This document shows positions 3,424 to 64,000 of a stretch of DNA of 64,000 nt, piece after piece. Location: assembly GCA_028532985.1 (NCBI GenBank), contig JANCIK010000007.1, forward strand, positions 2,356,001-2,420,000, in the 5' to 3' direction. Source of the DNA: Stropharia rugosoannulata (lineage: Eukaryota; Basidiomycota; Agaricomycetes; Agaricales; Strophariaceae). How positions within the stretch are numbered: position 1 is the stretch's first letter; every line of letters starts with the position of its first letter. A program made the position numbers and the translations under genes. The notes beneath the pieces were generated by a model, which saw only the letters and a program-made list of their open reading frames with translations, made no database searches and was not told where the DNA came from.

Positions 3424-3425
3424 TA

Positions 3426-27677: not shown

Positions 27678-27778
27678 GAAATGAATACATGTGACCTTAT
27701 CGATCTGCGATCAACATCAACCATCCCTCAAAATTTCTTCTTCGACACTCCTAACACCTTGTCATCATCTATCTACTA

Positions 27779-31210: not shown

Positions 31211-31542
31211 GAGTTGATCATGTGATTGAAATATTTCTTGATTTTCTCATCAGGTATAGGGGGAGGGTGCGAGGGCGGGGACCCAAAGGCGGCGGGGGCC
31301 CAAGCGGCGGAGTACGCCGCCGGCCATTTGGCGAAAGAAAACGCTCAAAAGTCCCGCAAAACGCCCCAAGGGGCCTCAAAGGGGCGCAAGGTGACCCAAG
31401 GAGGAGCAGGTACGCGTTAGCCGCCGTCTCCATACCAACCTCTGGTGCCTCTTCAACGGTCTACGCTGTAATGCTCTGTGAGTATTTTTTCTAATGAAGA
31501 CAGACCAATCATGGTTAACATTTGATATTGTATTGTTGCCTC
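31211..31542. other. GC-rich spacer, likely TET/JBP promoter region
   Basis: Holds a GC-rich stretch (about 31255-31400, with GGGGACCCAAAGGCGGCGGGG-like sequence) related to the GC-rich palindrome at the left end, plus a GCCGCCGGCC heptamer site. It is a degraded counterpart of the left-end structure. Short frames here do not look coding. Confidence 0.45.
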
Positions 31543-32341
31543 AGGCATCAAATCCAAATCTTCCAAAAACCCTTATGATGCTGGTAACTGACTCTCTTCG
31601 CTCCTGTGACGCTGAATTGCACCAGGTTCTCGCCGGGAATATCGCATTCACCGGCGGACAAAGCCAGTTTGCTGGCTTGGCAGACCGCTTAGCTTCACCT
31701 GCTAAAATGATTCCCTGTTCCAGGCAAGGAATAGATGCCCCTGGTAACCCAATTCGGCAGCGCCATAAAGGATAGCTGGGTGGAAGTATTTTGGGCATTT
31801 TGGGTACATTCCATCAGCTTTGGATAAGTCGGAGAGGAGTGACAGGCCATTCTCATCCACCATCAGCTCGCCGCCGGATTTTTTCCAGCCGGCTCATCGA
31901 AACTCTCACAAGTCCATTTGTTGAAAATGAGTCTATAGCACATGGTATTAAAATATTTACCACTAGCCCCGTGAAATTTGAGAAAATCATGTGACTATAT
32001 CCGCCAGATAGAAATGGTGTTTTCAGTACAACCGCCGGAATTCATTTTGTGAAAATTATAATGCCGCCGAATTTACCTCTTTTTACGCACATCGCCGCCG
32101 ATTTTACCGCTTTTTAATTATTTAACTTTCTGGTTCCGCCGGATTTACCTACCTATTTATGCGGATGCCATTTGTTGAAAATGGCCCTGTGAAACACAGT
32201 ACTAAGATAGGTTGCCATTAGCCCCGTAGATCACGGTATTATACTAGGTTGCCATTTGTTGAAAATGGGCCCGTGATCTACGGTATACTAATAGTTTACT
32301 GAGGTCCCGTATACTACGGTACCCAGCCACTGTCCTATGTG
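31543..32341 (-). repeat. Right terminal inverted repeat, 799 bp
   Basis: Reverse complement of 4756-5554 with very few differences. Ends CTGTCCTATGTG, followed directly by the target duplication AACGGAC (32342-32348). Confidence 0.9.
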
Positions 32342-36978: not shown

Positions 36979-36980
36979 TC

Positions 36981-37000
36981 TGGAGCCCACCGCGAGGGGA
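36981..37000 (+). promoter_or_regulatory. Primer-binding site of Ty3 element B
   Basis: TGGAGCCCACCGCGAGGGG begins two bases after the LTR, identical to the sites of A and C. Confidence 0.75.
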
Positions 37001-37642
37001 AGGTTCAGAAATCTCATTTAGTGTTTCGGGAACTACGGCTTGCACCTATTACAATAAATCACAAAAATTTCAAATAAAACGGGGACGAGTAACAAGCGAG
37101 GCAAATTTCCTGCGCCTTCATCGCTCGCCGAGCCAGAGGAAGCCAGACCATCATTTGGAACGGTGCCTTCACGCGAGAGAACCACGAGGAGCAAGAAAGA
37201 CGCTGAGCTGGTAGAGCCGTTGGTAATTACACCGATGCGAGACAGAAAAGCAAAGAAAAGAGCGAGGGAGGAAGCGCAGTTGCAGATCGAGACTCAGGGA
37301 TTAGCGCAGCGCATCCCAGGTGTGCTCACCGAAAGCGACTCGGAATTAAGAGTAGGGACTAGTGGATTTTGGGGACCACCATCTGGCATCGAAATAGAAG
37401 ACCAATTAGTGGACGGTGATATTACACTCGAAACCGCGCCATTCGGTACTTCTGATAGCCAAGCTACCCAAGACACCCCTCCTCCATTCTCGGAAGTATT
37501 TGGAACTGCTAAGACATCCGTGCAGCGCACGGCGGAAAATAGCGAAAGTGAGGCAGAGCGCGTAGCGAGAGATATATTTGGAGGAGACTTGTCAGATCTC
37601 TCAGAAAGCGAACGAAATTCACCCCCACGAGAACCAGAAACT

Positions 37643-40600
37643 ATGCCTAAGGATATGTCCATGCCAGTACACGGTGCGCGCGGCGCGCCGAGCTTCGATC
37701 CGGCTGCAGAGCGCGATGAGCTGCCGCTGAGAGGTCTGCCGCGGGGCTAGACTCGAATCACAAGAAACACAACACACACAACCCCAGCGGAGCGAGATCC
37801 TATCCCCTAGATCGAGCGACGCTCTTCAGCTAAGCGGAATATAGATGTCTACGCTTTTCCTGGTCCTCTCCGCTGAGCGACTGTGATGTTTAAGAGTTTC
37901 GTAAGTTCAGTCCAGATGTCCGCTGTACAGTGCCTGCAAGTTCGTTTTTTAAGGAGGGGTTTAATTCTAGAAGTCTCAGATTAATGTCTGGGCGACCTCC
38001 GCTGAGCGCAGGGTATCGATAGTAATGTATAGTTTTGATGGTGGCTCCGCGGGGCTTATTCCGCTGAGTGGGTTTGAGGTCCGGTGACCGATGCAGATGC
38101 TCACACAAGCTGGTATTCCCAATTGTGCCTCGCTCCGCTGACTATCCACAGTCCTATTCCGCTGAGGCTATCCAGAACCTCGTTCACCCGGTGGTGCAGT
38201 CTCAAATCTCAAAACACTACAGCGCGAGTTTTCGTACACGGTTGCACTGACTCCCCGCTGAGCTCTCCAAATGACCCGGTGGCCAGAAGCTATCCAAAAC
38301 TTCTATAATTCACAATACACTTCACAGTTAAAACCCTAACAAAAGCTAGACACAGCCCGCTGACGGTCTGGGACGGAGCCCAACACACAGATCTAGTGGG
38401 TAGACAATTGCTTAATTTCCGTAGTTACAATTACAAGTTTATATAGACGCGCTGTGTACTAATTTAGGTGGAGAGTAAATACTAGCAACGCTGACCAAAG
38501 GTCCGCTGAGCGCATGTGCCTCCGCTGGGCGTTTTTTGATGACTACTCCGCTGAGCGCGACCTGATCCCGTTGCGCCGCCAGCCTCCGCCGAGAGACGCT
38601 TTAACCCGCTGGGCGGTTCCTTCTTGGTCATCGAGGCCTGGTTACCGCTGCCAAAGTTCCCCAGCGGAGTCCGTGCTGTGTGCATTATTCATTCCCTCGG
38701 GCATCACACGCTCCAGCGCGCACGCCACGGTCACCTGACGAGTGGACTTAGGCAAATTTCGCCTTCGTGATGTGTTCCGCTGAGCCCTTTTTGGGACGCC
38801 GTCTACACACAGTCCTGCTCGTCGCCTTTGATATTTTCCGCTCAGCTGTACTCCTGCCTTCCGCTGGGACGACAGTAACCGTTATGTGCTCCGCTGACAG
38901 CTATTCCAGGTAATCCAACTGTGTACTTATGACCCGTACAGTCCGCTGAACCCCACACAACCGCCCGCTGAGCACACGCGTGATGATTTGTGATGCACGC
39001 GCTGAGCGCTGAGACGACTGATCAGGCTAATCACCGCTCCGCTGTACCCCTGCACTCCAGCCCAAACCGCTCGCTGTGGCCACTTACAGCCTTGGTATAA
39101 ACGCAGGCCTGTCATCTCCCCCTCACTAAAAATTTTGACTGTCCTCAGTCAAGATCCGCCTGTATTTTTAGACTCAGTACTGTCCCCGCGTCTACTTTTA
39201 GCGCCCCATTTTCTATTTTCAGCTTTCCCCAGCGCCTATTTGCCTATCTTTAGCTTCTCGGTCGTCTCCGATGTCCACTTTCATTGTTATCCGTTTCTCT
39301 CTCTGTTTAAGGATATTCTTTCCCTTTTTCAGCCTTGTGCCGCTGCTTCTAAACCCCCGCTCTCTATGTAGGTCGCCTGAAAGTTTATGTGACGCCGCCA
39401 CCCCGTACTTTTATCTTCCAGAAAATTCTCCGCTGGGCGAGCCTTTGTCTTATAAACGTCGGATACTGCTCTCTGGCCCTTCTCATCCTTTCTTTCCCCT
39501 CTCCTCCTGCAGACCCCCTGCATACTTTCTTCTCTAGTCTACCGAACATGGCTTTTCGCAATTTCGACCGCCGCCAGCGCGAGAAAGAGCGCGCTGAGGC
39601 CCTTTTAGACGCTCAAGACCGCTTCCGCCGCCTCCGCCCCGCGCTCATGGTTTATCAAGAGTTCGAAACGTTGGCTGGTGCCGACAACTTGCCTGACGAC
39701 GGAATGGCGCGGTTAGACGAGCTTCGGGTGGTCATCGACAACGCTGTCGAGGACCACCTGAGCTTTCATTGCTCTGACGGCCTCTACCACAACGGGGTCC
39801 GCGAATTTTGCATCCTCCTCTCCGCTGTGGCCAACATGCTTATCGCCAACGACCCCTCCCTGGCCCCGACGCTGCAAGCGCGTCGCTGGTTCACGAGTGG
39901 TCACCAGCCCCTGTCCTCCTACGTTCATTTCTTTGCTACCGCCTTCCCTACTCAGTGGGATGGCTCTTCCGCCCCAGGCCCTCGCCCCCTCTCCACCTCC
40001 GCTCCGCTCGTCTCTCCTGCCCCTCCTCCCATCCAGGCCGCTCCCGCTGCGGAGGATATTATCATGGTTTCAGACGACGAAGTTCCACGGCCCCCTTCGC
40101 CTTCGCCCGCGGTTCGTAAGGACAAACGCAAGCGTCTTCCTACCCCTCCTGTCGTCTTCGTTCCTCCCGCGCCGCCCCCAAAGCTAATTAAACGCCAGCG
40201 CCCCGCTGCGCTTGCGGCCAGCGCTGCTATCGCTGGTAAGTTTTTCTTTTAGATTTCTTTATTCCTCTATCCTGATCCTTCCCAGCCCAAGCCGATCTCG
40301 AGTCCCCAGCGGTAGTTTCCGTCGTCCGCTCCGCTGGCGGTCCTACCTTGGCCCTGACCGACAGCGGAATTGAAGAGATCACCAATACCCGCCCTGATAG
40401 CAACAAAATCGCGTACAAGTCTACCTATCCCATTCTCGACGTCTTGCCCCCTGTGTTCTCCGCTAAACTCGCCCTGGCTGGCGCTCCTCTGCCCGACGCG
40501 ATTGACATGAGCATGCTCCCCTCTGAGGCCCGCCTCGAAGGCGCTATTATTGTGCGTGTCTTATCTGCCCGCTGGGCGCCCCTTTCTATTTTTACTAACT

Positions 40601-43600
40601 GGTTTTCCACTTCTCACAGAAGGGAATGGTGTGCAATCACTGCGCTCGTCCTTTCAATGCTCGCATAAATGAAGGCCTTCACCAGTGCATCTGCCGCGGG
40701 TGGGCGCGGAATTGCTGTACTTGCAGTACCCAGCAAAAAGGAAAATGCCTCTTTTGTTGTGAGCCCGCGGAGGTCGACAAGACTATCGAGGACTCCTCCC
40801 TGTGGCATCGCACTTCCTTGACCAGTGAGTCTATTTCCCATCTCTTTTCTCTTATTCTGACTTGTAATTTTCTTTCTTTCTAGGCCTTCTGTCTGGCTTC
40901 GCTCGCCTCAGCGCCTATACAGAGCAAGCTCGCGTGGCTGAAGAGCAGCGCCGCTCCGCGGAGCGCATGTTCTTTGGTCAACTCATTGAACTTTCCCAGC
41001 TGGCGCGCGCCATGGCGCTCACCCTTCCCACTGGGATCATTGTTGGCCCGCGCTTCCGTGATTGCGAAACCTTCGACGCTCTCCGCTGCCTCGACCTCGA
41101 TCGACTCCACGAGGCCTACGCCTCTCTTTGTGCCCCCGCTGTCGTGGAAGACCCCCTTATCGTTGCCCCCGCCGCCTCTTTCTACGATCCAAAGCATCCG
41201 CGCTTCGATCCTACCACCTTCATCCCTGCCCCCCAGCCTGACCAGGCCATCACTCTAGAGGCCTTCAATGCGGCCGAATCTCAAGCTTTCGAGGACGCGG
41301 CCCTCCGCCAAGCTGAAGAGGCCGACGCTATCATCGCAGCGGAGAAGGTCAAACGCTCGCGCGATCGTTCGTCCAAGAGAGGGACTCCCGCGGACGGCTC
41401 TCTTCCCGCCACTCCCTCCACCAGTACTTCGCGCCTCGAGCCCTTAACCACCACTTCCAAGGGCAAGGCCCCCGCTGTGGCTCGCACTTTCCTGACTCCT
41501 TCGCGCGTCCCTAGCGAGGTAGACGCCGCCGAGGTTCCCGCGGAGGGGGATTGAGGGATGTCGCGCGCTCCGCTGGTTGTCAGGCCTTGGGGCCTTTATT
41601 TCTCTTTTCTACATTTCTTGTTCTCCTGCTCTGTATTACTTTATCTGGCATATGTAAAGTAAATTAGATCTTGCTATAATCAAATATGCCTCCTTTGCTC
41701 TGTCTTCTTTTGTGTGACTTTGCAACTTCTCAAGTCCTTAGCCATAGACTCCGCCCCGCTGAGCAACCTGCAGACCTCTGAGGAGGTGTCCTAGCTGTTG
41801 GCCGGGTTCTCCTACAGCTGACTCTCTTCTGCTATCTTTCTCTTTTTCTTAGGTCCGCTCAGCGGACTTCTTTTCCCCACACGTGCTCCGCGGCCATATT
41901 TTTGGCTCTCTCCCCTCACTATAAAATCAACTGTCCTCAGTTGATAGGCTCTTTATTCTTCTTCTTCTTCCTTTAGTCATGCAACGCTACCAGCGCACCA
42001 ATGTCGCCCGCCAGTTCACCTCCATCCTCAAGCAGCTGGCTGTCCATGTTGAGCTCACAGAAGACTCCGCTGAGACCACGCTCCATTTGTCGTTGCAGTC
42101 CGCGCAGGCTGTTGTCCGTGCTCTGGTAAGGCCTACTTCTATAAATTCTACTCCGCTGACTATTTCCACAGGATCGTATTACCCTCCCGCTGAGATTCGT
42201 TGACTTTAATCGCCAATTTCAGGCGTTCCTCATGACCATCGTGTTTTACGAGGCCCGCGCTCAGCGACATTCAGCGATGATCACTTCGACCCGCGCCTAC
42301 TCAGTAACGCCGCTTCGCGTTCTCGACCGATACAGTCATCTGGGCATGCCATTCCATCTGTTGCCTTCTTCTGAACGAATTGCAGCCGATGTTCAAGAAG
42401 TGGACCCTGATGCCGCGCTCATCGTAGACGATGTGTGCTCTGATTAGGTAGTCCGCTGCGCTGACCATCTACGTATATAATATAACTCCCTCTGTCTGTA
42501 TTCCTATACGCCAACATGCCCTCCTTGTCCGCTGAGAGTAATCTCTTATTACGTGCCCATTCCGATCCTCGCATCCTTCGTCTCGATGCTTTGTCCCGTC
42601 GTCCGCTAAGCGACATTCCTCCTCACGATGTAGCCCGAGTATGCCGAATCTATATAACTGCCCTTCACTATATTCTGGACTCCGCTGCAGAGGAACAGCT
42701 ACCCATGAGTGTCTGCCTCCCGCTGCTTAACCGAGTTCAAGATCATGCTGTAAGCCCCTTCTCCACGGTCCATGCACTCCCACTGAGTAGTCCGCGCAGC
42801 GGCCTAGAGCTGACCGAGTCCACCTGTCATTCACCGCTTCTTTCTCATCTCTGCGCTCAGCTGTATTACACCGAACTTGTGCTTCGTCTGTGTGGTACCA
42901 ACGACGCTGAGCGCTACGGCGTTCTTAATCACACCGAACACTTTCAACGCCTCCATTACGCCGCCCAGCATTTCTACCAGGAGGACTTCTTCCCCGTCTG
43001 TCCCCTTTTCTCTTCCTTCCCCGCTGCGCTGAGACCAAGATTATGTCAGGATGTTTGAGGTATTGCGCCCCTTCCTTGGTTTACTCCGTAGGGTACCCTT
43101 GTTACAGTAACCAGAGTAAATGGCTATTACATGTGGTGCCTCCTTTGCTATTTGAAATGACAAGTATCTAGTTAGGCACTATGTATTGTCGGTGCCAATA
43201 CCTGATTCGGACATAATTTTTCCATATGCGGTAATCACACGATCAGCCTCCGCTGAGCGCTTTCAGCTAGGCGCGCTCTCCGCTGGATCTCATTTCGTCT
43301 ATCAACTGCTCCCGCTCTGCACCCGTTTTATGCGAGCGTGCATGTGGTGGTCTGTCTCTACCTCCAGCGTTCATACCATAACTCCGCTGGGAGTCTGGTC
43401 CGCTGGGATGCCACATTCCTCGCCGCTGGCCGCCCCTCATTAGGTCCTCTGCGCTCCGCTGAGCCTATATATGCCCTACTCTCCTACTTTGAATCACTCA
43501 GCTACTAATGTCCAACGCACCCGCTCCGCTGTACAACTTTAGTAATGTCAAGCACCAGCTGGCATTAATCCAAGATATCAGAGGCTTGGCTTCCGCCATG

Positions 43601-46600
43601 CCTTCCAACTATACCGGGAGCCTCGAGCTTCTGGCTATTGACTTAGTACGCACAGCACTTAGCTGGTCTGCTGGGTCTTTTACTCCGCTGACCACTCGAA
43701 CTTTTTAGAACCGCTGGCGTGATCCCCACGGCGGCATTACTCGTATCATTAATAACAGCGAGGCTGTTGATATTCTCAACGAGACGCGTGCCATCTACAC
43801 CTCCTTAGAGGCGGATCACCACTTCCGCACTTTCTCCCGCTGCCAACGCTTTTATCACTCTGCATGAGCAAGTTTTAAAAGCGAAAGCCGCTGCTTCGCG
43901 CCAGCGCATGCATACTCCCACTGGACCAGTACGCTGTGTGCTTGCTGCCTTTCTTTATCTTTTTAATCGTCCGCTCAGCGCAACGTTCGCCTCCTCTCGC
44001 GCTCCGCTGCCGATCCTGAGACGGTCTCTGCCCCGGAGGTACCTCCTCCCCCGATTCTGATGACGACAAGGTGTGACTGACTTCCTCACCCTTTTAGATA
44101 TTACTAACATGCAGCTGTACCTCCTCCTTAAAAAGATGGCCCTCGATGACAAGATCGAGGCTGCCACTGAGGGCGGAGTACCTAGCCGCCAGAATACCCC
44201 AGAGCCTAGTCCTTCGAAGAAGCGCTCAGCGCCTCCTCCCGACACTCCTCGTCAGGTTCGTTCTGTTGCGTTTCCTCCTCGTTACTTTCTCACTTCTATG
44301 TCAGCGAGAGCGTACTGAGGCCAGCGGACATCGCACTCGCGTGCTTGGCCGCGGCATGACACTCCGCTCTTCTGACAACCGGCGCCTCCGCGCGACACAC
44401 CTTTCCACGACGCTTCCTCTAAGAAGGCTCGTCTCGGCGCTGACGGCGTTCCTACTTTCGCCGATTCTCCTTTCATTGTGCAGGGTGCGCTATTTGCCCT
44501 TATTCTTCTCTGTCGCGTCCGCTGAACTCTTTCATCTTCTTTTAGGTACCAATCTCACTCTCTCGAACGACAAGGTCAATGCCTGTCTCGACGCTGCTAC
44601 CAACCTCATTAAGGAACCGCTGAACACCGAACCCCTCCGAGCTCGTCACTCGCCGTCTCATCGGAGATTTGCAGGCTGAGATCATCTGTGACTTGCACAA
44701 GATTGACTTCATCCTGAAGCGCCGCGCTCTGCTCGTTAACGAGTTAGAGACTTTACAGCGCAGCTTGATTTGACTGGGACCAGCCCGCTGAGGAGCCCGC
44801 GCGCAGTGACGGCCCTCTTAATTACTCCGCTGAGCGCCTCAAAGTGGTCCTTAGCTAGTTTCTTTTGTACCTTTCTCCTTTAGTTTACCCAATATATTCT
44901 ATTGTGGTCTCCTTTTCTACTTTGTGCCTCTAAGCATCGGGCTCCGCCCACCCATCCTCATCATCATCTTCTTCGTCCGCTGAGACTTGGCCGCTGCCTG
45001 AAACCACTCCTGGTTCATCAAAGATATAGTCTTTAGGTATGGCCGGCTCGTAGTCTGGCGCTGACATCATCTTGTTGAGGTTCTCCCGCGTTTGATCAAT
45101 GATATCGTCTAAGTCCGCTGGCAGCTTCAGCTGACGCCTGGCAAAGTAGGGTATTAAACGGAATGCTGCGACTTTGTCTTTCAGCACCGACCCATCCAGC
45201 TCAGCGACTAGATAAGCGCCTCCTTCCTTCCGCGCGATGACGATGTATGGTCCATTCCAGCGCGCCAACATTTTGCGATTTAAGCTGGACTCAATGCCAG
45301 AGTTACGCATCAGTACGACATCGCCAGGTTTGAACGCATAGTCTCTGATCTTAGCGGAGTGTTTCCGAACTCTCTGATAGCATCCCGCTTTATCTTTGAC
45401 ACCCGCTGACGCATCTCCTCCACTGTGTCCCTATGTTTGGCCAGCGCACGCGCACGATACCCTACTAACTCCTCTGTGGTAAGTACCCGATCTGGTAACT
45501 TGACCAGCCACGTCGCTTCAGCGATGTCCAGCGGTAGTATCGGGTGCGCGCCAGTGACCATGAAGAAGGGTGAACACCCAAATCCGCGGCGCACTGTAAC
45601 GCGGTCTGCCCACAGCACATGGTAGAAGAACTTGCTCCAGCGCTTATGTGCGCCCTCGGTACCTCCACACGCTTTCCACAACATTTGTCTGATGTCCCAA
45701 TGGGGCCGCTCTATCTTTCCGTTCGCCTGAGAGTTGTACGCTGAGATGGTAATCCCTGTAATACCATACTTCTTTTCTAAGTACTTGAGCGCTGCGCGGA
45801 ACGGTCCACCGTTATCTGTGATTATCTCTCTAAGACATCCCCAGCGGCAGATAATATCCTCAAAATACCCATTTGAGGCAGGCGACATGTGCATAGTGTC
45901 CGCGTGTAGCTGCTGGAAGATGGAAGGCGTATGTGTCTCCGTCCGCGGAATCTGGATGATCGTCTTTTGCCTCAGCTGACACACATGGCATGTCTTGACA
46001 TACCAGTAGACGTCCCGCTCCAGCTCTGGCCACCAGAAGCGCTCCATCAGCAGTTTGCGCGTGGCGTATGCGCCTCTGTGCCCCAGACTATCATGCGCGG
46101 CACGCAACATACGCGTCCGCTGAGCGGGATCAACTACTAGTTTATGTGCCTCGTCCACTGAGCGCCGGTACATCCGCCCATCCTTGTCTAAGAAGAAGTT
46201 TCGTGCGTTACGGATGAAATTCTGATACTCCCGCTCGCTCATATCCTTGGGTCTTGTACTGGGATTTTGCAGCCAATACCTTATCATTGGCAGCTTATCA
46301 TCCATGTCCTTCCCCGCTGACGTTCGGTTCCGCTCATCGTACTCTTCGTCTTCCAACTCATCTATCTTTGATTCTGGAATTACATGTGCCAGAACAAATT
46401 TCTCTAAGTACGCCCGCTGAGCGGGCGACACCTCCTCTGTCTGTAGGAAGTTACGCACTGTCCGCTGTTCTTCTCTCGTCTCTTTTCTCGCCCGCTCCAG
46501 TTCTAACTGGAAACAGTCAACCGAATGTGCCTCCGTTCTAGCTGGCTCAGCGGGACCATCAAACAACTCGTTGAGGAATCCAGCTTGTAGATATCCTCCG

Positions 46601-49600
46601 CGGTCGTCAATCTGGTCCTTGAACTCTTCTAAACTCAGCGGTCGGGATCCTCTTCATACACTTTCTCGTACTCCAGCGGACCTACTTCTTGGTCATCATC
46701 CTCCGCCGAGTGCTCATACTCTTCATCTCCTGGTTGTCCTTCTCGTCGCGACAGGCCGTCCGCGTAAACGTTTTGCCTGCTACATGCTTCAGCTGAAAGT
46801 GGTACATAAGGATCTTGTCTATCCAGCGGTTAATGGTAGCGTTAGGTCCCATGCCCGGATTATCCAACATCCCTTTGAGATATTTGGCATCCGTCTCCAC
46901 TACCAACTTCCGCGCTCCGATGAGCCAGTAATAGCACGCCTGCAGCGCTGCAATAGCCCATATAGCTCTCTCTTTGGTTGTGAGAACCGCTGTTCCTCTC
47001 AGTTAACAGAATTGACCCAAAGCGGGCGTACACACGCTTCTTCGCGTTCAGCGGATCTTGCTGGTAGATATAAAATCCTACAGCGCCAAGACGTATCTAC
47101 TGCCAACGTGATTGGTCCTGGCAGTGTATAGTCCAGCGGCTTAACACAGTGTGCGTTCCGCGCTCCATCCTTCAGCGCATCCATACTGGCTTGCTGCGCT
47201 GGCCCCCACTCGAAGGGTTCTTTCCCACGCAACAATCTCTGTATGTGCTCCGCTCGCTTAGCGTAGTCTGAGATGTAAATACGCAGGAGTCCCATTGTAC
47301 CCATGAAGGCGCGCACATCGCTGACATTCTTACACGGTCCCCAGTTGAGGATGGCGTGCACTTTATCTGGCGCTGGCTTTCGACCTTCGTAGGTACATAA
47401 GTGTCCCACCACTACAATCTCCGCTGCACACAATATGGATTTCTTTCCGCTGAAAGTCCCTCCTGAGTACTTCATCCGCTGAACTATCCTATTCACATTC
47501 TGCATGTGTTCCCACACGAAACGCCTGATTCCGCTGTTCTCCGGAATCGTCTCGTACCCTCCATCCTCTAATTCGTACCGTGTCTTTGGTCCGCGGATAG
47601 GCACATCGTCAATGTACGGCTCCGTGACGTCTGGTATTTCATCGCGGAGAATATAAGTTACATCTTCATGAAAGATGGGTACAGAATTGGTCCAGCCCAT
47701 TGGCAAGGTCACTAAGCGGAGCGCACCAAACGGTGTCTGGAATGTTGTTAAGTCCCGAGACGACTCCGCTAAGAGCCGCTCGTCGTAGCCTACATACAAA
47801 TCCAGTATTCCGCCACACGCACGCCCAGCGAAGTGTTCTGCCAAACTCTCCGCTGCCGGTGGCAATCCTGAGTGCGCGATGGTAACAGCGTTCAGCGGCT
47901 CTAAGCTATGTACTATTCTAAAGGACACCCCGTCTTTCTTTGTTACTGTGAACCAGCGCGACCGGTATGATGAACTGGATGGTTCATAAGTCCCAGCGCG
48001 GATCTTAGTAGCGATGAACTCGCACACCCGCTCGTACATGCCTGGCGGAATGGGTATATTTTTCAGTACCCACGGCGTATGTTCTACCGTTGGAATATCT
48101 ACCGGCGGGAAGAAGTCTGTTCTAAACCTCCCCTTTTCCGTGTCATCCCACGCGAACGCCTCATTCTGCTGCATGAACACCTGATGTACTAGCTTGCGCT
48201 CTTCTGGCCACAGGAAATCTCCTCCGTGCGCTTTATCTATTTCCTCCTTCCGCTCCGCTGTGTACCTTCCCGTGGGTACGAACTCTGGTGGGTGTACCGT
48301 CAGCGGAGGCATTTCCTTCAGCGGATCTCCCTTTATCTCTCTCACTATTCTGAATTTCTCTGGCAGCTCTTGATAAACGGGCCTGACCTTGTCAGCGACT
48401 GGTTTATATTTCTTTCCTGCAAAGGCGGTTATGGTAGTGGCATTCTTACCAGTTAACCGCTTTCTAGTTACTCCTTTCCGCGCTGACTGGCCTTGCTCGG
48501 GGTCCGCTGAGCGGAATTGCCCCCTAGGCTCTCCTTTCACCGTCTCTTTTTCTCGCCATTCTTTTTGCTGAAAGTACTTATAAATTGATGCTTTCTCTTT
48601 ATCCTCCATCTTAGCCTCGTGCACAGCTTGAGCCATGTACACATCTCTCAGCTCAGCGGAGCCAAATCTCCCTCCCTTCTTTGGCAACGCATACCCCGCT
48701 ATCTCTATCTTTCCAGTCCTATCATCCCGCTCGAACATTAACGCGACCTCTCCTTGACGCATCAAATCATCGAGGACTGAAAATCCTGGTCGGCGTGCGG
48801 CTCCTCCGCTGCGCTGGAGTCCTGCACATCTGGCTCCCGCTGAAGTATCTTCGGCCCGCACCCTCGATTATACGTAGGTACCACTAGCTTCCGCTGAGTG
48901 TTTGGGTCCGTCAGCGTAAGTTCCACTGTGCCATCCCCGCGCGTCTTCACATTGCTTTCAGTGAGAATCTCGAACGGCTTCCCCAACAGAACCTCATAGG
49001 CGGCCGCGCTGATAACGTGCACTTGTAGGTACACTGTCAGTCCGCTGAACACAAAAGGTACATTCCGCGCTAAGCCCTTAGTCGACTCGACTTGTTTGTT
49101 AGCGCTCTGCATCCTAATGGTAAAGTCAGGATCCCAGCTTAAGCCTAGTCGCTCCGCGGTATCTTGCGCCATGGACACTATTTGCGATCCGCTGTCGAGC
49201 AGAGTCTCTGCACGGCCTTTCCCATTGATCAGCGGAAATACCGCCTTGAGATGGTGCGATTCTCGTGCCACAATTAATCCCTTTGGCTTTTCGCCGGGTT
49301 GTAGCGTCGAGATGTATTGCTCATAAGGATCCTCCATGATTATTGTGCCGGGTTGTAAGCCACCGCGCTCCTCCGCGCAAGTGAGGAATGTCGCCGCTGG
49401 GAGCTCGTCCATTCGCATGAACTCTTCTTCTTCATTCTCCTGCTTCAGCTGGGCGATGGCCTCGTCCATCTCCCACTCTTCTGCCTCATAATCCAGCTGC
49501 AAAACCCGCATGGTATTTACATCCAGCGGAACCTTGCGCGGTATGATACGCTCGACAAACTTCCTCCTAAACCCCGCTGTAGAGATCCCCAATAATTGTC

Positions 49601-54946: not shown

Positions 54947-56220
54947 GTCTGATGAAGGGAAACGCGGGCAGAGTTATGCGTAGCGGCTCTGATAAACCCA
55001 AGAACCCGGAGGGTGCAAACAAGAAGTTACCAATCAAGAATATACCCAGAGCATCAGTTGAGGACGCGAGTGATGAGGAGGAAGATGAGTTGCGAGAGGT
55101 AGTGGAGGAGCAAGGTGCGCGCAGCGCACCCGTAAAGAAGAAAGTAGTATTTGAGGTACCTGCAAAGGCTGGGCCTAGTGCACGACCAGCAGCAGTGCCA
55201 TATGTAATGGTACCTCCGCTGCACGTTCCGGAGAAAGTAAAACCTAAGGTTAGGGAAGAGCCCATACCTGTAGTAGAGAAGAGGAAACCTGCTTATAAGC
55301 TGCGCACACCTATCGAAGATGAAGCGCAGGCTGACGCAGTCCTCAAACACTTAGAAAATCAGAAAATTGAGATCACGCAGGGCCAGTTGTTGGGAATCTC
55401 GACTGCAGGTTTCAGAAGAAAGTTCGTTGAGCGCATAGTACCAAGAAAGGTACCATTGGATCTGAACACGATGCGCGTACTACAATTAGACTACGATGAA
55501 GAAGAGCGCGAGGTAGATGAAGCTATCGCGTGGTTAGCAGAAGAAGAAGAGGAAGAGGAATTTATGCAGATGGATGAGCTACCAGTGGCCACTTTCCTTA
55601 CTTGCTCAGATGAGCGCAGCGGACTGCAACCGGGGACCATCATCATGGAAGACCCGTACGAGCAGTACGTCTCGACTCTGCAGCCAGGCGAAAAGCCTAA
55701 GGGACTTACTGTGGCGCGCAAATCGCACCATCTAAAGGCGGTATTTCCGCTCATCAACGGCAAGGGACACGCGGAGACGTTGCTCGACAGTGGGTCACAG
55801 ATTGTGTCAATGGCACAGGACACCGCTGAGCGCTTAGGACTTAGTTGGGACCCGGACTTCACTATACGGATGCAGAGCGCGAATAAGCAGGTGGAATCCA
55901 CCAAGGGCTTAGCGCGCAACGTACCATTTGTGTTTAACGGACTGACAGTGTATTTACAAGTGCATGTCATCAGCGCAGCGGCTTACGAGGTACTCTTGGG
56001 CCGGCTGTTCGAGATCCTCACGGAGAGCAATGTGAAGACGCGCGGCAATGGAACGGTTGAGCTTACGCTCACTGATCCCAACACACAGCGCAAGCTGGTA
56101 GTACCCACCTATAACTGAGGGTGCGGTCCCAAGATTGTGCAACGCGAACCTAAATTGCAGGACCCTGGCACAACGGAAAACCCTAGCGCAGATCAGGATT
56201 TTCAATCCTCGATGATTTGA
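54943..56220 (+). pseudogene. pro: Protease-region protein of Ty3 B with one nonsense codon
   Basis: Aligns with the A protein throughout: KRKPAYKLRTPIEDEAQADAV, ISTAGFRRKFVERI, protease LLDSGSQIVSM, YEVLLGRLFEIL. The frame hits TGA at 56116-56118 where A has CGA (YNRGCGPK), then continues open to 56220. The change is a C-to-T transition at a CpG. The catalytic part lies upstream of the stop, but Pol could not be reached by frameshifting. Confidence 0.82.
56196..56202 (+). promoter_or_regulatory. Candidate -1 frameshift site GGATTTT between pro and pol of element B
   Basis: Zero-frame GAT-TTT preceded by G. The -1 frame continues GGA-TTT-TCA-ATC into pol. Confidence 0.5.
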
Positions 56221-59200
56221 TGCGTCAAGGAGAGGTCGCGTTGATGTTTGATAGAGATGATTGCACGGGGAAAATAGAGATAGCAGGGTACGCGCTACCA
56301 AAGAATAAGAAGCAGTTTGGGAGCGCTGAGCTCAGGGATGTATACATGGCTCAAGCAGTACATGAAGCTAAGATGGAGGATGATGAAAAAGAAAGAATAT
56401 ACAAGTATTTTCAGCAGCGCGAATGGCGCAAAGAGGAAGTAGTCAAGGGAGGGCCTAGAGGGCAGTTCCGCGCATCGCACGAGGAACAGGTCCCTAGTAA
56501 GAAACAAGGAGTAACGCGTAAGCGCTTGACTGGCAAGAATGCCACAACCGTTACGGTGCTCGCAGGAAAGAAGTATAAGCCAGTGGCTGAGAAAGTCAGG
56601 CCCGTCTATCAAGATTTACCAGAGAAGTTTAGAATAGTGAGGGAGATTAAAGGGGACCCACTGAAGGACATGCCACAATTGTCACCACATCCACCAGACT
56701 TCATACCTACAGGTCGGTACACCGCTGAGCGCATGGAAGGGATTGACAAAGCGCATGAAGGGGATTTCCTGTGGTCCGAGGAGTGCAAGTTGGTGCATCA
56801 AGTTTTCATGCAGCAGAATGAGGCATTCGCGTGGGATGACACAGAGAAGGGTAGATTCCGTACAGACTTCTTCCCTCCAGTAGACATTCCCACTGTAGAG
56901 CACACACCTTGGGTATTAAAGAACATCCCGATACCACCTGGGATGTATGAGCGTGTATGTGAATTCATCGCGACCAAGATTCGCGCAGGCACGTATGAGC
57001 CCTCGAGCTCATCGTACCGGTCGCGCTGGTTTACAGTGACTAAGAAAGACGGGGTCTCGTTCAGAATTGTGCACAGTCTTGAACTGTTAAATGCGGTAAC
57101 CATTGCACATTCAGGACTACCTCCAGCAGCGGAGAGTCTAGCAGAGCACTTTGCGGGGCGCGCATGTGGCGGCATCCTGGACTTGTATGTTGGGTACGAT
57201 GAGCGGCTGTTAGCTGAATCCTCTAGAGACCTGACTACATTCCAGACGCCGTTCGGTGCGCTGCGCTTAGTGACCCTTCCTATGGGATGGACGAACTCCG
57301 TGCCCATCTTTCATGAGGATGTCGCATATATATTATGCGATGAAATACCTGAAGTTACAGAGCCCTATATAGACGATGTACCTATTAGGGGACCTAAAAC
57401 GCGCTATGAGTTAGAAGGAGGAGGATACGAGACGATACCAGAGAATAAGGGAATAAGGAGATTCGTATGGGAGCACATGTTGAATGTCAACAGAATCGTG
57501 CAGTGCATGAAATACTCAGGGGGAACATTTAGTGGAAAGAAGTCCATACTGTGCGCGGCTGAGATAGTAGTGGTGGGGCACTTGTGCACATACGAAGGAC
57601 GAAAGCCAGCACCTGATAAAGTGCATGTGATTCTCAATTGGGGACCATGCAAGAATATCAGTGATGTGCGCACATTCATGGGTACAATGGGTCTGCTACG
57701 GATTTACATCTCGGATTACGCGAAGCGCGCAGAGCACATACAGCGGCTATTGCGTGGGAAAGAGCCCTTTGAGTGGGGGCCCGCTCAGCAAGCTAGCATG
57801 GACTCGCTGAAAGACAGTGTGCGCAACGCACATTGCATGAAACCACTGGACTACACATTGCCAGGGCCGATTACTTTGGCTGTAGACACATCATGGCGAG
57901 CAGTAGGATTCTATATTTACCAGCAGGACCCACAAGGTTCGAAGAAAAGGGTATATGCGCGCTTCGGATCAATACTGTTAACGGAACGCGAGCAGCATTT
58001 CTCACAGCCCAAACGGGAGTTGTATGGACTCTTACGTGCGCTGCAAGCCTGTTATTACTGGCTCATCGGTGCGCGCAAGCTGGTGGTGGAAACGGATGCC
58101 AAATACCTGAAGGGCATGTTGGATAATCCGGGCATGGGCCCTAATGCGACTATTAATTGCTGGATAGATAAAATACTTATGTATCACTTCCAGTTGAAAC
58201 ATGTTGCGGGCAAAACCTTTGGTGTGGATGGTTTATCGCGTAGGGAAGGGCAACCTGGAGATGAGGCGTACGCGCACTCCGAAGAAGATGATGATCAGGC
58301 GGTGGGACCGCTCGAATATGAGAAAGTCTATGAAGATGACCCAGATCCCCTGGACTTTGAGGAATTCAAGGAACAGATCGATGATCGCGGAGGGTATCTA
58401 TATACAGGACTCCTCAACGAGTTGTTTGAAGGTCCCACAGCGCGCAAGTTACCAGAAGCGTGCTCTATAGGCTGTTTCCAGCAGGAGCTCGAGCACGCAC
58501 GGAAAGAGACGGAAGCGGAAAAGCGGGCCGTGCGGGACTTCATACAGAAAGAGAGTGTGCCGCTCGCGCAGCGCGAGTACTTAGAGAAATTCATACTAGC
58601 ACACGCGATACCCGACTCTAGAATAGAGGATCTGGAGGATGAGGAGTACGATGAGCGCAACAGGACGTTTGCAGGAAAAGATATGGATGAGAAATTGCCG
58701 ATGATACGCTACTGGTTGCAGAATCCAACCACTAGGCCTAAAGGCATGACGGAGCGAGAATATCAAAACTTTACGAGGAATGCTCGTAACTTCTTCTTAG
58801 ACAAGGATGGGCGGATGTACCGGAGATCCATAGATGACGCGCATAAGTTGGTGATAGATCAGGCGCAGCGGACACGCATGCTGCGCTCAGCGCATGACAG
58901 CTTGGGGCACCGAGGAGCGTATGCTACGCGCAAATTGCTAGCTGAGCGCTTCTGGTGGCCTGAGTTGGAAAGGGATGTCTACTGGTATGTGAAAACATGT
59001 CATGTCTGTCAGTTAAGGCAGAAGACGATCATCCAGATCCCGCGCACCGAGACACACACGCCGTCTATCTTCCAGCAACTACACGCGGACACTATGCACA
59101 TGTCCCCGGCCTCCAATGGGTATAATTACATAGTGCACGGAAGATGTGCGCTGAGCTCATGGGCGGAAGGGCGGCCATTAAAGAAAGAGAATGCCCGTGC

Positions 59201-60155
59201 AATAGCGCAGTGGATATTCGAGGACATTATCTGCCGTTGGGGCTGTCTACAAGAAATCATCACAGATAATGGTGGACCGTTCCGCGCAGCGCTTAAGTAT
59301 TTAGAAAAGAAGTATGGGATTACAGGGATTACCATCTCAGCGTACAACTCGCAGGCGAATGGCAAGATAGAGCGCCCCCATTGGGACATAAGACAGATGT
59401 TGTGGAAAGCGTGTGGAGGAACAGAAGACGCGCATAAGCGTTGGAGTAGGTTCTTCTACCATGTGTTGTGGGCTGATCGAATCACTGTGCGACGAGGATT
59501 CGGGTGTTCCCCATTCTTCATGGTAACGGGCGCGCACCCCATACTACCATTCGACATAGCAGAAGCGACTTGGCTGGTCAAACTACCAGATCGCGTGCTG
59601 ACTACGGAGGAGTTAGTAGGGTATTGCGCGCGCGCACTAGCCAAACATCGCGACACAGTAGAAGAGATGCGCGCATGAGTATCAAAGACGAAAAGAGATG
59701 CGATCAGGGCATTTGAAAAGAAGCACTCGGCTAAAATCCGTGACTATGTGTTTAAGCCAGGAGATGTAGTGCTAATGAGGAACTCGGGCATAGAATCCAG
59801 TCTGAACCGTAAGATGCTTGCACGATGGAACGAGCCTTACATCATTATTGCACGAAAAGATGATGGAGCATACTTAGTGGCAGAGATGGACGGCTCTGTG
59901 TTGAAGGATAAGGTGGCGGCGTTCCGCCTCATTCCCTACTTTGCACGAAGGCAGCTGCGCTTACCGGACGGCTTGGATGATATAATTGATCAGACCAGGG
60001 AGAACCTCGCTAAAATGCTAGAGGCACCGGACTATGAACCAGCTATTCCCAAAGATTATATCTTTGATGAGCCTGGTGTACCCTCGGGTAGCGGTGCGCT
60101 TACAGTGGAAGAAGATGAAGAAGACGATGATGACTGGGGCGAAGAAGACACTTAG
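56217..60155 (+). pseudogene. pol: Pol of Ty3 B with one nonsense codon
   Basis: One frame from the pro overlap to 60155, broken only by TGA at 59676-59678 where A has a sense codon (another CGA-type site). Reverse transcriptase: LDLYVGYDERLL, LRLVTLPMGWTNS, YIDDVPIRG. RNase H: ITLAVDTSWRAVGFYIY, RELYGLLRAL, VVETDAKYLKGM. Integrase: GHRGAYATRKLL with CHVCQLRQK, LHADTMHMSPA, ITDNGGPF, NGKIERPHWDIRQ. After the stop the same frame gives VLMRNSGIESSLNRKM and the GPY/F-like WNEPYIIIARKDDGAYL. There is no chromodomain. Motif GCGCGCA words are frequent in it. The element would be defective without readthrough. Confidence 0.88.
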
Positions 60156-60281
60156 GGATGCGAGTATCGTAGGAAGAAAGCGACCACAATATAATATATT
60201 GGGTAAAGAAGATGGGGAATACAAAGAGAGCTAGCTACAGACGCCCCTTTAAGGCGTGCAGCGCACATTGAGCCAGGCTAT

Positions 60282-61598
60282 CTACTGGGCCGGTTTGTCC
60301 TCGGTGGCAGTAATGCCAGTAACGTCGAGGCTGCGCTGCAAGATGACGAGCTGCTCGACGAGGAGTGCACGGCGCTTGAGGATGAAGTCGACCTTGTGGA
60401 GATCACAAATGATCTCTGCTTGTAAATCACCAATGAGGCAGCGCGTCACCAACTCGGAAGGGTTACCCGTATTAAGGGGTTCCTTAAGGAGGTTAGCGGC
60501 GGCATCAAGACAAGCATTGACCTTGTCATTGTCCAAAACGAGAGAAGTGCCTAAGGGAGAAGGGTTAGAAAAGATCAGTAAGAGAGTGGTGCGGTGCGCG
60601 CACCTTGCATAATAAAAGGAGAGTCGGGGAACGTAGGAACGCCCTCTGAGCCCAGCCTGGCTTTCTTAGGAGAGGCCTCACCTGCAGCGGCGTCACGGAA
60701 TGAGCGACGGAGCTCGGTCTGACGATAAGTCATGCCTCGACCAAGGGGACGAGAGCGGTAACCGGGAGTGTCTCCGCGCTCGCGCTGGTATTTCTATAAG
60801 AATCTAAGTGCGCGCAGCGGAGACGGGTCAAACACACACCTGTTTAGGAGTATCAGGAGGCGCGGTGCGCTTCTTGTTAGGGTTCGGCTCGGGTGTATGC
60901 TGCCTGCTGGGAGGACCTCCCTCAGTCGCGGCTTCAACTTTATCATCGAGGGCCATCTTTTTGAGGAGCATGTAAAGTTGCATGTTAGTGATGTCTGGTA
61001 AAGAAGCGAAGGTTAGCCACACCTTGTCATCATCAGAGTCAGGAGATGTAGTACCTCCAGGCGCGGAGGCGGTCTCAAGGTCCGCAGTTGCGGAACGCGT
61101 AAGAACGCAAATGTTGCGCTGCGCGCACCAAAAAGGAGATTAAGTATAGAAAGGGTTAGGGAAGGAAGATGAACATACCGGTCCAGTAGGGGTATGGGTG
61201 CGCTGACGAGAAGCGGCAGCCTTGGCCTTGAGGACTTGTTCATGCAAGTTGATAAATGCGTTGGCGGCAGGAGAGAAGGAGCGAATGTGGTGGTCAGCCT
61301 CGAGCGACGTGTATATGGCGCGAGTCTCATTGAGGATCTCGATAGCTTCATTGTTGTTTATAATGCGAGTGATACCGCCGTGCGCGTCGCGCCAGCGGTT
61401 CTGCAATCGTGCCAGACGAAGTCAGTAACATACAACAAGGGAACCGCGCGATGCGCGCACCAAATCGACAGCAAGCAGCTCCAGGCTGCCGGTGTAATTG
61501 GCAGGAGTGGCAGAGGCCAACCCACGAATGTCCTGGATCAGCGAGAGTTGATGCTTGACATTGGTGAAGTTAAAAAGAGGAGCATGAGTAGTAGCCAT
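60282..61598 (-). CDS. Cargo gene 4 of Ty3 B (365 aa)
   Basis: Exons 61598-61461, 61400-61179, 61118-60840, 60793-60604 and 60550-60282 join in phase, giving 365 residues with no stop. The start is MATTHAPLFNFTNVKHQLSL. Conserved with A: IQDIRGLASA, NRWRDAHGGITRIINN, LEADHH, DITNMQLYMLLKKMALDDK, GRGMTYRQ, NDKVNACLDAAANLLKEPLN and the C-terminal LQAEIICDLHKVDFILKRRALL. It is a mostly helical protein with no recognised domain. Two of its four introns begin with the family motif GTGCGCGCA, and the others contain it near their 3' ends. A TATA-like GCTATATAAG lies at about 61658-61667 on the minus strand. It starts 127 bp downstream of the pol end, tail to tail with it. Confidence 0.82.
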
Positions 61599-62128
61599 GG
61601 TAGTGGTTGAGAGCAGTAGGAATAAAGTGCGATGCACTCATACAGAGACGGCGAGCGTCTTATATAGCATTCGCTGGTTTGATCAGTGCTGTGCGCAGCT
61701 GGTGACTGACCGAACAGCAGGCCCAAGGAGTTAAAGGAGGGACTTTACAAAAGGGTCCAGATGGGTCATAGCACAGGGCTACACCCGTCTAACGTTACAT
61801 TCACGGAGATTGAGTGGGATGGAAGGGACCTGAATACAAGAGCCCATATAGCAACGAGAAGAAGGGGGGAAGATCGTGCGCGCATCGCAGCAAAAGAGTG
61901 AGCGCATCAGAAGAGATGCAGGTCTTTCCCCGTTTGGCAAAGTGATGTCTGTTTTGGGATTGATGCCGAAAATGCATAACAATGTTACCCGACAGTCTTA
62001 TTTCAAATACAGGGTCATGACACATGTACCAAGGAATAGATGCTAGCTATAACTATAGATAGTTATCAATGGAAAGACAGCAAAATGTCAGTTCGGGAAT
62101 TAGACATCCTAAGAAGTGATTGTCAGGG
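61599..62128. other. Spacer between cargo genes 3 and 4 of B
   Basis: Non-coding; holds the promoter of gene 4 and the 3' region of gene 3. It includes a CGTGCGCGCATCGCAGC motif near 61876. Confidence 0.4.
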
Positions 62129-62645
62129 TCAGCGCAGCGCACGAGGAGAAAGACCCACAGGAAAGAATTCCTCCTGGTAAAAGACCTGGGCGGCATAGTG
62201 GAGTTGTTGGAAGTGTTCAGAGTGAGGGAGGGTGCCGTAGCGCTCAGCATCTGTAGTACCACACAAGCGCAGGATGAGCTCGCTATAGTGAAGCTGAGCG
62301 CACAAGTGCGATAGGCGAGGCGAGTGACAGGTAGCTTCGGTCAGCGCCAGAGCCCGCTACAAGGATGTCAGAGTCGCGGACGAAAAGGGTGGAGAAGGGA
62401 CATGCGCGCACTGCATGGTCTTGAACGTGGCGCATCATGTCTAGGCAGATGGTCATGGGAAGCAGCGGTTCAGTCGCGGCCTCAAGAATAAAATGAAGGG
62501 CGCCTATGTAGATGCGGCAGACGCGCTCATGATCATCGAGCGGAATATCAGCTAGCGCCCGCTTGGGTAGAGCAGCTAAGCGCAAGAAGGAAGGATCGGA
62601 CCTTGCGCGTTGAAGGAGATTACTTTCGGTATCGAAGGAGGGCAT
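62129..62645 (-). CDS. Cargo gene 3 of Ty3 B (132 aa)
   Basis: Exons 62645-62412 (78 codons) and 62293-62129. The start MPSFDTESNLLQRARSDP aligns with the A start MPSLSAESNLLLRAHSDP, so upstream in-frame Met codons are not used here. Conserved: RVCRIYIGALHFIL, MRHVQDHA, then ELILRLCGTTDAERYG and FQQLHYAAQVFYQEEFFP. The intron donor is GTGCGCGCATG and its acceptor lies in TGTGCGCTCAG, both motif-like. Function unknown. Confidence 0.8.
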
Positions 62646-62716
62646 GATGATAAGAGACATGTTCATTTGAGGGATCATATATATCACTAAATGATCCATC
62701 AGAGCCGTGCACGGGC

Positions 62717-63198
62717 TCAATCGTAGCTAATATCATCTACTACAAGGGCAGCATCGGGATCTACGTCTAGAATGGCGGTCCCTGTTGGTTCCGAGGGTGG
62801 GAGATTGTGAAAAGGCATGCCAAGATGGCTGTACCGATCGAGAATGTGAAGAGCAGCGTTGCTGAGCATGCATGCATCGAAATGATCATCGCTAAATCTG
62901 CGCTGAGCGCGGCCTTCGTAAAACACGATCGTCATGACTAAAGGCAGGAATTGGCGGTTGAAGTCGATAAAACGCAAAGGCAGTGTAATCCGATCCTGGA
63001 GGAAAGCGTTAGCATAAAGAAGTGCCTGCATGAACCTAAGGAGGTTACCAGTGCGCGCACGAGGGACTGAGCAGACTGTAGAGGAAAGTGAAAAGGGCCG
63101 TTGTGGCAGTCCTCTGCGAGCTCCGCATGAATGGCGAGTTGTCTCAGTAAAACAGTGAATTGGCGAGCGACAGCGGTGCGCTGATATCGGAGAGCCAT
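62717..63198 (-). CDS. Cargo gene 2 of Ty3 B (142 aa)
   Basis: Exons 63198-63049 and 62995-62717 with a 53-bp intron. The product starts MALRYQRTAVARQFTVLLRQ and includes TLPLRFIDFNRQF, MTIVFYEGRAQRRFSDDHFD, ILDRYSHLGMPFHNLP and DPDAALVVDD. It keeps the middle segment that is out of frame in A, so it is the better reference copy. Function unknown. Confidence 0.82.
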
Positions 63199-63218
63199 AG
63201 AAGGCAGTAAAGAAACTG

Positions 63219-63246
63219 TCAACTGGGGACAGTTGAATTTATAGTA
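63219..63246 (-). promoter_or_regulatory. TATA box and hairpin upstream of cargo gene B2
   Basis: On the minus strand CTATAAAT (about 63245-63238) leads directly into TCAACTG-TCCC-CAGTTGA (63236-63219), 20 bp before the ATG. Same layout as at 41919-41944 in A. Confidence 0.6.
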
Positions 63247-63699
63247 GGGGGGAGAGATGGCCTAGCCAAGCAGAGATAAATCCAGGAGCCTAAGGAGATA
63301 AGGAGATAATACAAAAAGGGCAGAAGTAGCAGTTGGTTAGCGTATACGCATAGGCACATCTTTCATATGCGCGCATCGCACCTACACTTGCCCACAGTAG
63401 AAAGACAGGAGCAAAAGTTGGTGGATACATATAAGCAGGTGGACACTGGTCATATGCGCGCATGGCACTTGTAACAGCTTAAGAGGAACCAGGCTATTAG
63501 ATATCTTAAAAGACAGAAAGAACTTAGGTTCACACAAGGAAGAGAAAAGAAAAGCATATATAGAAGCATATCTTAATACATAGTACAGGCCTATTTTACA
63601 TATGCTAGGTAAAATAGGGTCAAGACAAGGAAGAAAAGAGAGGGCAAGAAAAGAAAAGAAGTCCAAAAGGGGGCATTCAATGCACGCATCGTGAAACAC
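63247..63699. other. Spacer between cargo genes 1 and 2 of B
   Basis: Non-coding. Contains ATGCGCGCATCGCACC near 63367 and ATGCGCGCATGGCAC near 63455. Confidence 0.4.
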
Positions 63700-64000
63700 C
63701 TAGGCCTCCGTTGCGTGCCCGTCCTCATCACAGGAAGCCTCAGGGCTCGACTCGGGAACAACGGACGCGGACTTATGGGGACGAGAGGGAGCTTTCCCCT
63801 TGCCCTTCGAAGAACTCGCCCCCTTGCCCTTCGAAGAACTCGCCCCCTTGCCCTTCGAAGAACTCGCCCCCTTGCCTTTTGAAGAACTCGCTTTGGAGGC
63901 GGCAGGGCTGGAGGTGCGCTGCGCACGCGGGACGATTTTAGTAGCAGCAGAGGGTTGTTCTGCGGACCCAGAGGTGGAAGGTTCGAAACGGGGATGTGCA
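63700..64000 (-). CDS. Cargo gene 1 of Ty3 B, C-terminal part only (runs off window)
   Basis: The frame enters from 64000 and ends at 63700 with ...HATEA. It is Ser/Ala/Lys/Pro-rich like the end of A cargo gene 1 and occupies the same position in the conserved gene order. It has four copies of an ASSSKGKG unit encoded by a 24-bp tandem repeat (about 63790-63885). The Cys cluster, if present, is beyond the window. Assignment rests on order and composition, so it is tentative. Confidence 0.6.
   Translation of the reverse strand, partial: AHPRFEPSTSGSAEQPSAATKIVPRAQRTSSPAASKASSSKGKGASSSKGKGASSSKGKGASSSKGKGKAPSRPHKSASVVPESSPEASCDEDGHATEA

Follow-up and report, generated by a model that had tools for sequence, protein, structure and literature searches.

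Private CpG-centred words in two giant Ty3 retrotransposons of Stropharia rugosoannulata and their possible role in family-specific escape from silencing

Why should two closely related retrotransposons in one genome each carry, from end to end, a short DNA word of its own? This question is raised by a 64,000-nucleotide stretch of the basidiomycete Stropharia rugosoannulata (contig JANCIK010000007.1, C7:2356001-2420000; hereafter the window). Here a giant Ty3 long terminal repeat (LTR) retrotransposon, element A (37728..53554, minus strand, 15,827 bp), is nested inside a second one, element B (35272..37727 and 53555..64000, plus strand). The word of A is CAGCGG, often as TCAGCGGA, and that of B is GCGCGC, often as TGCGCGCA. 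In addition, a zone with a KDZ transposase (24301..32300) carries a third word, CCG[C/G]CGG. Several explanations were compared, and a family-specific DNA-binding, anti-silencing function of the words ranks first, ahead of host-factor, RNA-level and recombination readings; we regard its chance of being correct as about even.

Each word was counted against 200 dinucleotide-preserving shuffles per word and segment. For instance, there were 112 copies of CAGCGG on the coding strand of A (shuffle mean 8.1, maximum 16) and 28 copies of CCGCTG, which is CAGCGG on the other strand (mean 3.5, maximum 10). The longer TCAGCGGA was found 40 times in A (mean 0.5, maximum 3) and never in B or in its copy B2. 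The right part of B (53555..64000), with B's word throughout, contains 16 copies of TGCGCGCA (mean 0.4, maximum 3), which is absent from A, and 46 copies of GCGCGC (mean 6.0, maximum 13); the two pieces of B2 contain 15 and 23 copies of TGCGCGCA (0.3 expected in each). In the KDZ zone we found 26 copies of CCGCCGG and 6 of CCGGCGG (mean 0.2 each, maximum 3). An ordinary, cargo-free Ty3 element of the window, Ty3 C (10080..17718, minus strand, 7.6 kb, 619-bp LTRs 100% identical), served as control. Its reverse transcriptase (RT) core is 80% identical to that of B, and it contains a single CCGCTG, while the remaining six words of the count are absent from it.

Codon usage does not account for these counts. 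Among 1000 shuffles of gag-pol that keep both the protein and the codon usage, none reached the 32 copies of CAGCGG (6.6 expected) or the 16 of CCGCTG (2.2) in A, or the 23 copies of CGCGCA (6.0) and 18 of GCGCGC (7.5) in B. The full TGCGCGCA occurs only 3 times in B gag-pol (0.5 expected; a count attained by 10 of 1000 shuffles), where a slight excess of CAGCGG is seen as well (6 versus 2.6; 27 of 1000). Throughout the 48-Mb genome (20 contigs), there were 1442 and 1488 copies of TCAGCGGA on the two strands versus 575 and 569 of the reversed control, and 2784 copies of TGCGCGCA versus 633. Furthermore, the word of A recurs in its copies A2 and A3 and that of B in B2, and CGCGCA ranked within the top six 6-mers by enrichment at each of 30 B-type pol loci. 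An earlier note on this DNA had proposed family-private words in A, B and the KDZ zone. In A and B, they withstand both the dinucleotide and the codon control and are common to other copies of the same family, and this proposal is borne out. Their privacy holds for TGCGCGCA and TCAGCGGA but not for the short cores, since GCGCGC is mildly raised in A also (18 versus 9.1, maximum 17). Motif fitting by expectation maximization gave blurred two-strand motifs and was dropped in favour of word counts.

The words are spread along the whole elements and end at the element boundaries. Across the nested junctions, successive 2.4-kb blocks of B, A, A and B contain 2, 26, 27 and 5 A-words and 13, 1, 1 and 7 B 7-mers. 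This switch of word type means that a regional mutation bias cannot account for the words. Only one tandem array was found in 35272-64000 (at 63796-63891), and its unit is without the words. Thus, as 8-mers the words are private; they cover the element from end to end and go no further, and they are independent of codon usage and not derived from tandem repeats. Their density in A is 15 per kb in the LTRs, 7-8 in gag-pol and the antisense zone, and lowest, 5.5, in a cargo gene discussed below (gene 1). Elsewhere, locus L033 has a one-strand array of CTTGCAC at 3256-4460 (18 in L033, 1 on the opposite strand); this repeat and TACCGGG in L036 1-1385 are mainly local clusters.

The word of A had been taken for a palindrome, which the counts do not bear out: CCGCTNAGCGG occurs 5 times in the window (genome-wide 270 versus 28 for its reversed control), and CAGCGG lies 4 to 1 toward the coding strand (112:28). 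A preferred orientation was also found in B2 (GCGCATC, 21 to 9) and in the KDZ zone (26 to 6). As a unit, TGCGCGCATCGCA stands at only 5 places in the window. It had further been claimed that A and B swap words at homologous positions. Both site pairs quoted for this claim exist, but they do not reflect a rule: over 7380 aligned columns, only 4 of the 57 A words fall on a GCGCGC of B2, the mean of shifted alignments is 2.1, and 16% of shifts reach 4. The first 7.07 kb of A, from the 5′ LTR through RT, contain 67 A words. Of these, 3 match the aligned B2 hexamer exactly, 23 differ from it by one substitution, 19 by two and 13 by three or more, and for 9 the alignment is gapped; for control hexamers, 92 of 464 are identical. 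Therefore, the words of A differ from B mostly by point substitutions.

We found that the words also show signs of selection. A, A2 and A3 are 97% identical over the first 7.07 kb of A, and 61 of the 67 word sites of A are unchanged in A2 and A3, compared with 173 of 225 control hexamers that contain a single CpG and five G/C (p = 0.006; when A2 or A3 is the reference, p = 0.002 and 0.011). The copy pairs of A have 20/21, 20/21 and 21/22 LTR words in common at 94, 96 and 94% LTR identity. For B, synonymous CpG transitions in pol relative to copy L002 were counted in 17 young, 8 intermediate and 3 decayed copies, and the window's own B (L001) was left out of these age groups. In the young copies, 13 of 493 (2.6%) word CpGs were changed compared with 275 of 2159 (12.7%) outside words. 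Counted by site, 10 of 29 versus 88 of 127 had changed (p = 6e-4), where it should be noted that the B copies share ancestry and that the grouping by age and the B word set (eight patterns) were fixed only once the copies had been seen. Repeating this test with eight reference copies gave p values of 0.0006-0.011. The intermediate copies showed 23/230 in words versus 178/1014 outside, and the decayed copies, without any protection, 28/87 versus 103/381. Because the words do decay in decayed copies, the word context is not intrinsically less mutable. Word CpGs are spared synonymous decay in young copies and not in decayed ones, as purifying selection in the moving lineage would give, and the words look selected. 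These signs of selection support the words' having a function.

What could read the words? The best candidate would be cargo gene 1, which in A lies antisense to pol (39541..41551, plus strand) and whose product, hand-spliced on the basis of frames and splice signals, has 610 aa. One of its exons (Cys exon, 40623..40826, plus strand) carries the pattern C-x2-C-x(13-16)-C-x8-C-x2-C-x7-C, and the six cysteines are invariant in all 15 aligned A- and B-type sequences. The protein identity between A and B is 89% for RT, 87% for gag, 81% for protease, 81% for integrase and 59-61% for cargo genes 2 and 3. For gene 1 of A and B2, it falls to 50% in exon 5 and 33% in the Cys exon, the most diverged part compared. 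The nonsynonymous divergence (dN) of the Cys exon is 0.10-0.26 within the A word class and 0.14-0.36 within that of B (three pairs each), and 0.67-0.84 between the classes (nine pairs). Exon 5 showed a weaker contrast, with 0.30 and 0.14 inside a class and 0.38-0.40 across classes; A2 and L040 yielded no exon 5, and the misaligned exon-1 row of L041 was unused. The earlier note had named covariation of the words with an encoded protein, and this holds in a single contrast, that of A and B.

Gene 1 was found antisense and 3-10 kb downstream at 67 of 87 RT matches of at least 89% identity and at none of the 23 matches of 79-87%, where a copy too diverged for the query would escape; 40 of 150 RT matches were left out of this count (one partial match of 91%, others more distant or partial). 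Among these 23 relatives, Ty3 C is the only one read for words. In the genome, the Cys exon had 31 A-type matches with 68-98% identity and a further 28 weak matches with 31-41% identity and E 0.006-0.15, which were B-type in the cases checked. Exon 5 had 64 B-like matches (70-100%), 29 A-like ones (53-62%) and 7 pieces. A Pfam scan of gene 1 gave no family matches, with no Zn_clus among matches up to E 10, and the best hit of a PDB profile search had E 0.21. The structure model of the Cys exon was poor (mean predicted local distance difference test, 52) and was not used for a fold search. Searches with the hand-spliced protein and the exon-5 alignment gave no gene 1 relative at E <= 0.001 among 7995 candidates, in whose sources introns may hide the gene. 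With pol, 1463 relatives were obtained, the best at 78% identity, and related elements are therefore present elsewhere. In the viral contigs searched, no relative was found.

Judged from these sequences, gene 1 behaves as an exchanged cassette. The cargo zones of A, A2 and A3 are 93-98% identical up to gene 1 (87% in one A-A3 window), and then, from gene 1 to the 3′ LTR, six 500-column windows drop to 52-74%. The B copy L041 is likewise 67-69% identical in the gene 1 zone versus about 90% alongside. The synonymous divergence (dS) of gene 1 between copies is 1.6 or more or saturated, whereas that of the neighbouring gene 3 is 0.07-0.17, so old gene 1 alleles were exchanged between young backbones. 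Saturated gene 1 dS beside neighbouring-gene dS of 0.07-0.26 was observed for window 39115-41640, L034, L038 and L041. The exchanged zone holds 9+3 words in A, 9+4 in A2 and 3+4 in A3, and its word sites are hardly more conserved than controls. Positive selection on gene 1 was unsupported, with a dN/dS of 0.07-0.29 within families where computable and a dS of 1.6 or more or saturated.

Where copies have decayed, the decay is CpG-specific. Three decayed copies have CpG transitions at 17-21% compared with 3% for other C/G, while two young copies have 1.9 and 3.5% compared with 2.3 and 2.5%. There were 6 matches to DNA methyltransferase in the genome (PF00145, exon pieces) and 32 to TET/JBP, 31 of them over the cut-off. 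The KDZ zone contains both a transposase with CxC2 and KDZ domains (24314-26482, plus strand) and a TET/JBP dioxygenase frame (29947..30450, minus strand, PF12851, E 1.1e-12); terminal repeats were not found in 24301-32300. We count the TET-rich genome and the TET/JBP gene in this zone as added support for an anti-silencing reading. A second zone of CCG[C/G]CGG words lies left of Ty3 C at 4301-10050 (14 CCGCCGG and 11 CCGGCGG in 5001-10080). Another TET/JBP match stands just past the interrupted 3′ LTR of B (L031 4380-4814, C7:2424380-2424814), with same-scoring matches on contigs C9 and C13.

We therefore describe the anti-silencing reading as follows. Each giant Ty3 family would keep its own CpG-centred word element-wide, and the words would be putative binding sites of a protein encoded by the element. 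This reader may be gene 1, given that its Cys exon is the part most diverged between A and B and is kept within each word class. Dense binding would then block or reverse CpG methylation and silencing on the reader's own family only, as VANC proteins do on VANDAL transposons. A fuller scenario, to which we give somewhat less than an even chance, is that the two sister Ty3 families and the TET-carrying KDZ element independently evolved private CpG-centred address words for telling self from non-self and escaping CpG methylation. The Ty3 reader would be the six-cysteine protein on an exchangeable antisense cassette, and a change of reader would be followed by the rewriting, one point at a time, of some 140 sites per element, those in coding sequence among them.

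However, several results weigh against the anti-silencing reading. There is one clean word contrast, A versus B, so the covariation could be mere phylogeny. That gene 1 rather than a host factor is the reader, and that binding affects methylation, is what we infer from sequence, and neither Pfam nor PDB backs DNA binding by gene 1. A, A2 and A3 share one word although their gene 1 differs (Cys exon 68-85%); thus gene 1 mostly changes without a change of word, and the gene evolves for further reasons. Similar rates of CpG and other transitions in the young copies do not prove an unmethylated state, as reverse transcription may be another source of changes. In the cargo zone without gene 1, word-site conservation gave p values of only 0.03, 0.17 and 0.09, and the p values of the B decay test rise to 0.017-0.071 when words are compared with CpG-dense sites only. 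Nonsynonymous CpGs in words are unprotected in young copies (28/1002 versus 84/4097; by site, 21/59 changed versus 63/241).

The strongest rival is that the words bind host factors, such as a zinc-cluster regulator or a remodeller, which keep the element open or transcribed while gene 1 does something else. CGG and CGCGC words are read by fungal zinc-cluster proteins, the words of A are densest in its LTRs (15 per kb versus 7-8 in the other main segments), and DNA binding by gene 1 is putative. This explanation must face two sister families that carry different words in one genome and spread them through coding sequence; moreover, gene 1 accompanies A and B copies (67/87) and not their relatives (0/23), of which the one read, Ty3 C, is wordless. 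We consider a host factor unlikely. A role in RNA, with the words recognised in the genomic RNA by Gag or some other protein of the element in order to package or protect it, appears less probable still. It would explain why the word of A lies 4 to 1 on the genomic-RNA strand, and 39 to 6 even in the antisense-gene zone. Nevertheless, A and B have almost the same Gag knuckle stretch though their words differ, which argues against Gag as the reader; the core of B is self-complementary, and the word of the KDZ zone, a DNA transposon, is oriented to an equal degree.

The words might also act in recombination, in copy recognition or in integration instead of in escape from silencing. Gene 1 is exchanged between near-identical backbones, and the eight insertions read have 4-bp flanks with a central CG. 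Yet words are sparsest in the exchanged zone of A, where their sites are barely better kept than controls, and Ty3 C inserts at NCGN too while lacking the word; we judge such roles improbable, slightly more so than the RNA one. That the words arose as a side effect of base composition, codon bias or local mutation is very improbable. All the words are G+C-rich and contain CpG, and the elements are high in CpG, but the dinucleotide and codon shuffles, the switch at the nested junctions and the mutual absence of TCAGCGGA from B and TGCGCGCA from A oppose it.

The giant elements that carry the words have the structure of Ty3, with LTRs beginning with TG and ending with CA, a target duplication and the order protease-RT-RNase H-integrase; the gag-pol of A and B is 77% identical in DNA. 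Both have antisense genes between pol and the 3′ LTR. A is complete, with an LTR pair 99.1% identical, and each LTR (5′, 52145..53554; 3′, 37728..39114; both minus strand) contains 21 words, 19 on the coding strand and 2 on the other. Between them, on the minus strand, lie frames for gag with a CCHC knuckle (50039..51745, weak Pfam match), protease (48765..50198), RT (47002..48867, 89% to B pol) and RNase H/integrase with an H2C2 zinc domain (45313..46653), and cargo gene 3 lies antisense (42516..43055, plus strand, 136 genome matches). The left part of B consists of the 5′ LTR and the leader as far as the point where A is inserted, and its last 4 bp belong to the target duplication CCGC (37724-37727 and 53555-53558); copy L036 shows the empty site. 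The right part contains gag, protease, pol (RT, RNase H and integrase, 56217..59675, plus strand) and cargo, including an antisense piece of gene 3 (62286..62726, minus strand, 61% to A over 87 aa). B extends 2.9 kb past the window end (L031), and its interrupted 3′ LTR begins 2.5 kb past it.

Eight Ty3 insertions have a readable flank (five on both sides, three on one): CCGC, ACGT, ACGG, CCGT, CCGG, CCGG, GCGT and ACGT, read in the window at 37724-37727/53555-53558, 35268-35271 and 10076-10079/17719-17722 and at ends in L034-L041. The central CG compares with a background of 4.8% of dinucleotides, and Ty3 integration at CpG is likely. A heterokaryon incompatibility (HET) domain protein is encoded at 325-2028 (minus strand, Pfam E 6.9e-11).

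If the anti-silencing reading is true, sequence-specific anti-silencing would be a recurrent strategy that serves an LTR retrotransposon too and is not peculiar to one group of plant DNA transposons. Furthermore, A and B, as close relatives with different words, would give a direct view of DNA-binding specificity co-evolving with about 140 target sites. Young and decayed copies would form a natural assay of selection on the words, and the gene 1 cassettes natural variants of the reader.

Such words were not reported for fungal retrotransposons in a literature search of titles and abstract openings, mostly outside subscription journals. The Zn2Cys6 (Gal4-type) domain has the consensus C-x2-C-x6-C-x(5-12)-C-x2-C-x(6-8)-C. 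Gene 1 resembles it in having six cysteines in two groups, and the words of A and the KDZ zone contain CGG. However, the second spacing of gene 1 is 13-16 instead of 6, so it departs from the consensus, and it has no Pfam match. In plant LTR retrotransposons such as Retand, too, additional genes lie between pol and the 3′ LTR, and some of these are antisense; in A and B, such genes are linked with an element-wide word. The KDZ zone, with its KDZ/CxC2 transposase and TET/JBP frame, resembles the fungal DNA transposons, KDZ included, that carry TET/JBP genes, for which the accessible text does not mention dispersed words (PMC12730594). No TET/JBP domain was found in the Ty3 frames scanned.

The closest parallel is VANDAL/VANC of Arabidopsis. 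According to the accessible text, VANDAL elements have a dense, family-private motif mostly in one orientation, related families differ in motif, and VANC proteins combine conserved with very variable parts (PMC5735166, PMC10398659). The VANC21 motif is described there as mainly non-coding and in tandem repeats (PMC5735166). A likewise has a dense private motif mostly in one orientation (112 to 28), and its candidate gene 1 is element-encoded with conserved and very variable parts. Unlike the motifs described for VANDAL, the words of A and B are scattered without tandem arrays and also stand in coding sequence (7-8 per kb in gag-pol, 15 in LTRs). In addition, A and B are LTR retrotransposons with protease, RT and integrase, not MuDR-type elements, and gene 1, a putative reader, is without recognised homology to VANC. 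Thus, the A/B system is not a VANC member, and it is best read as a probably convergent, VANC-like device for family-specific anti-silencing.

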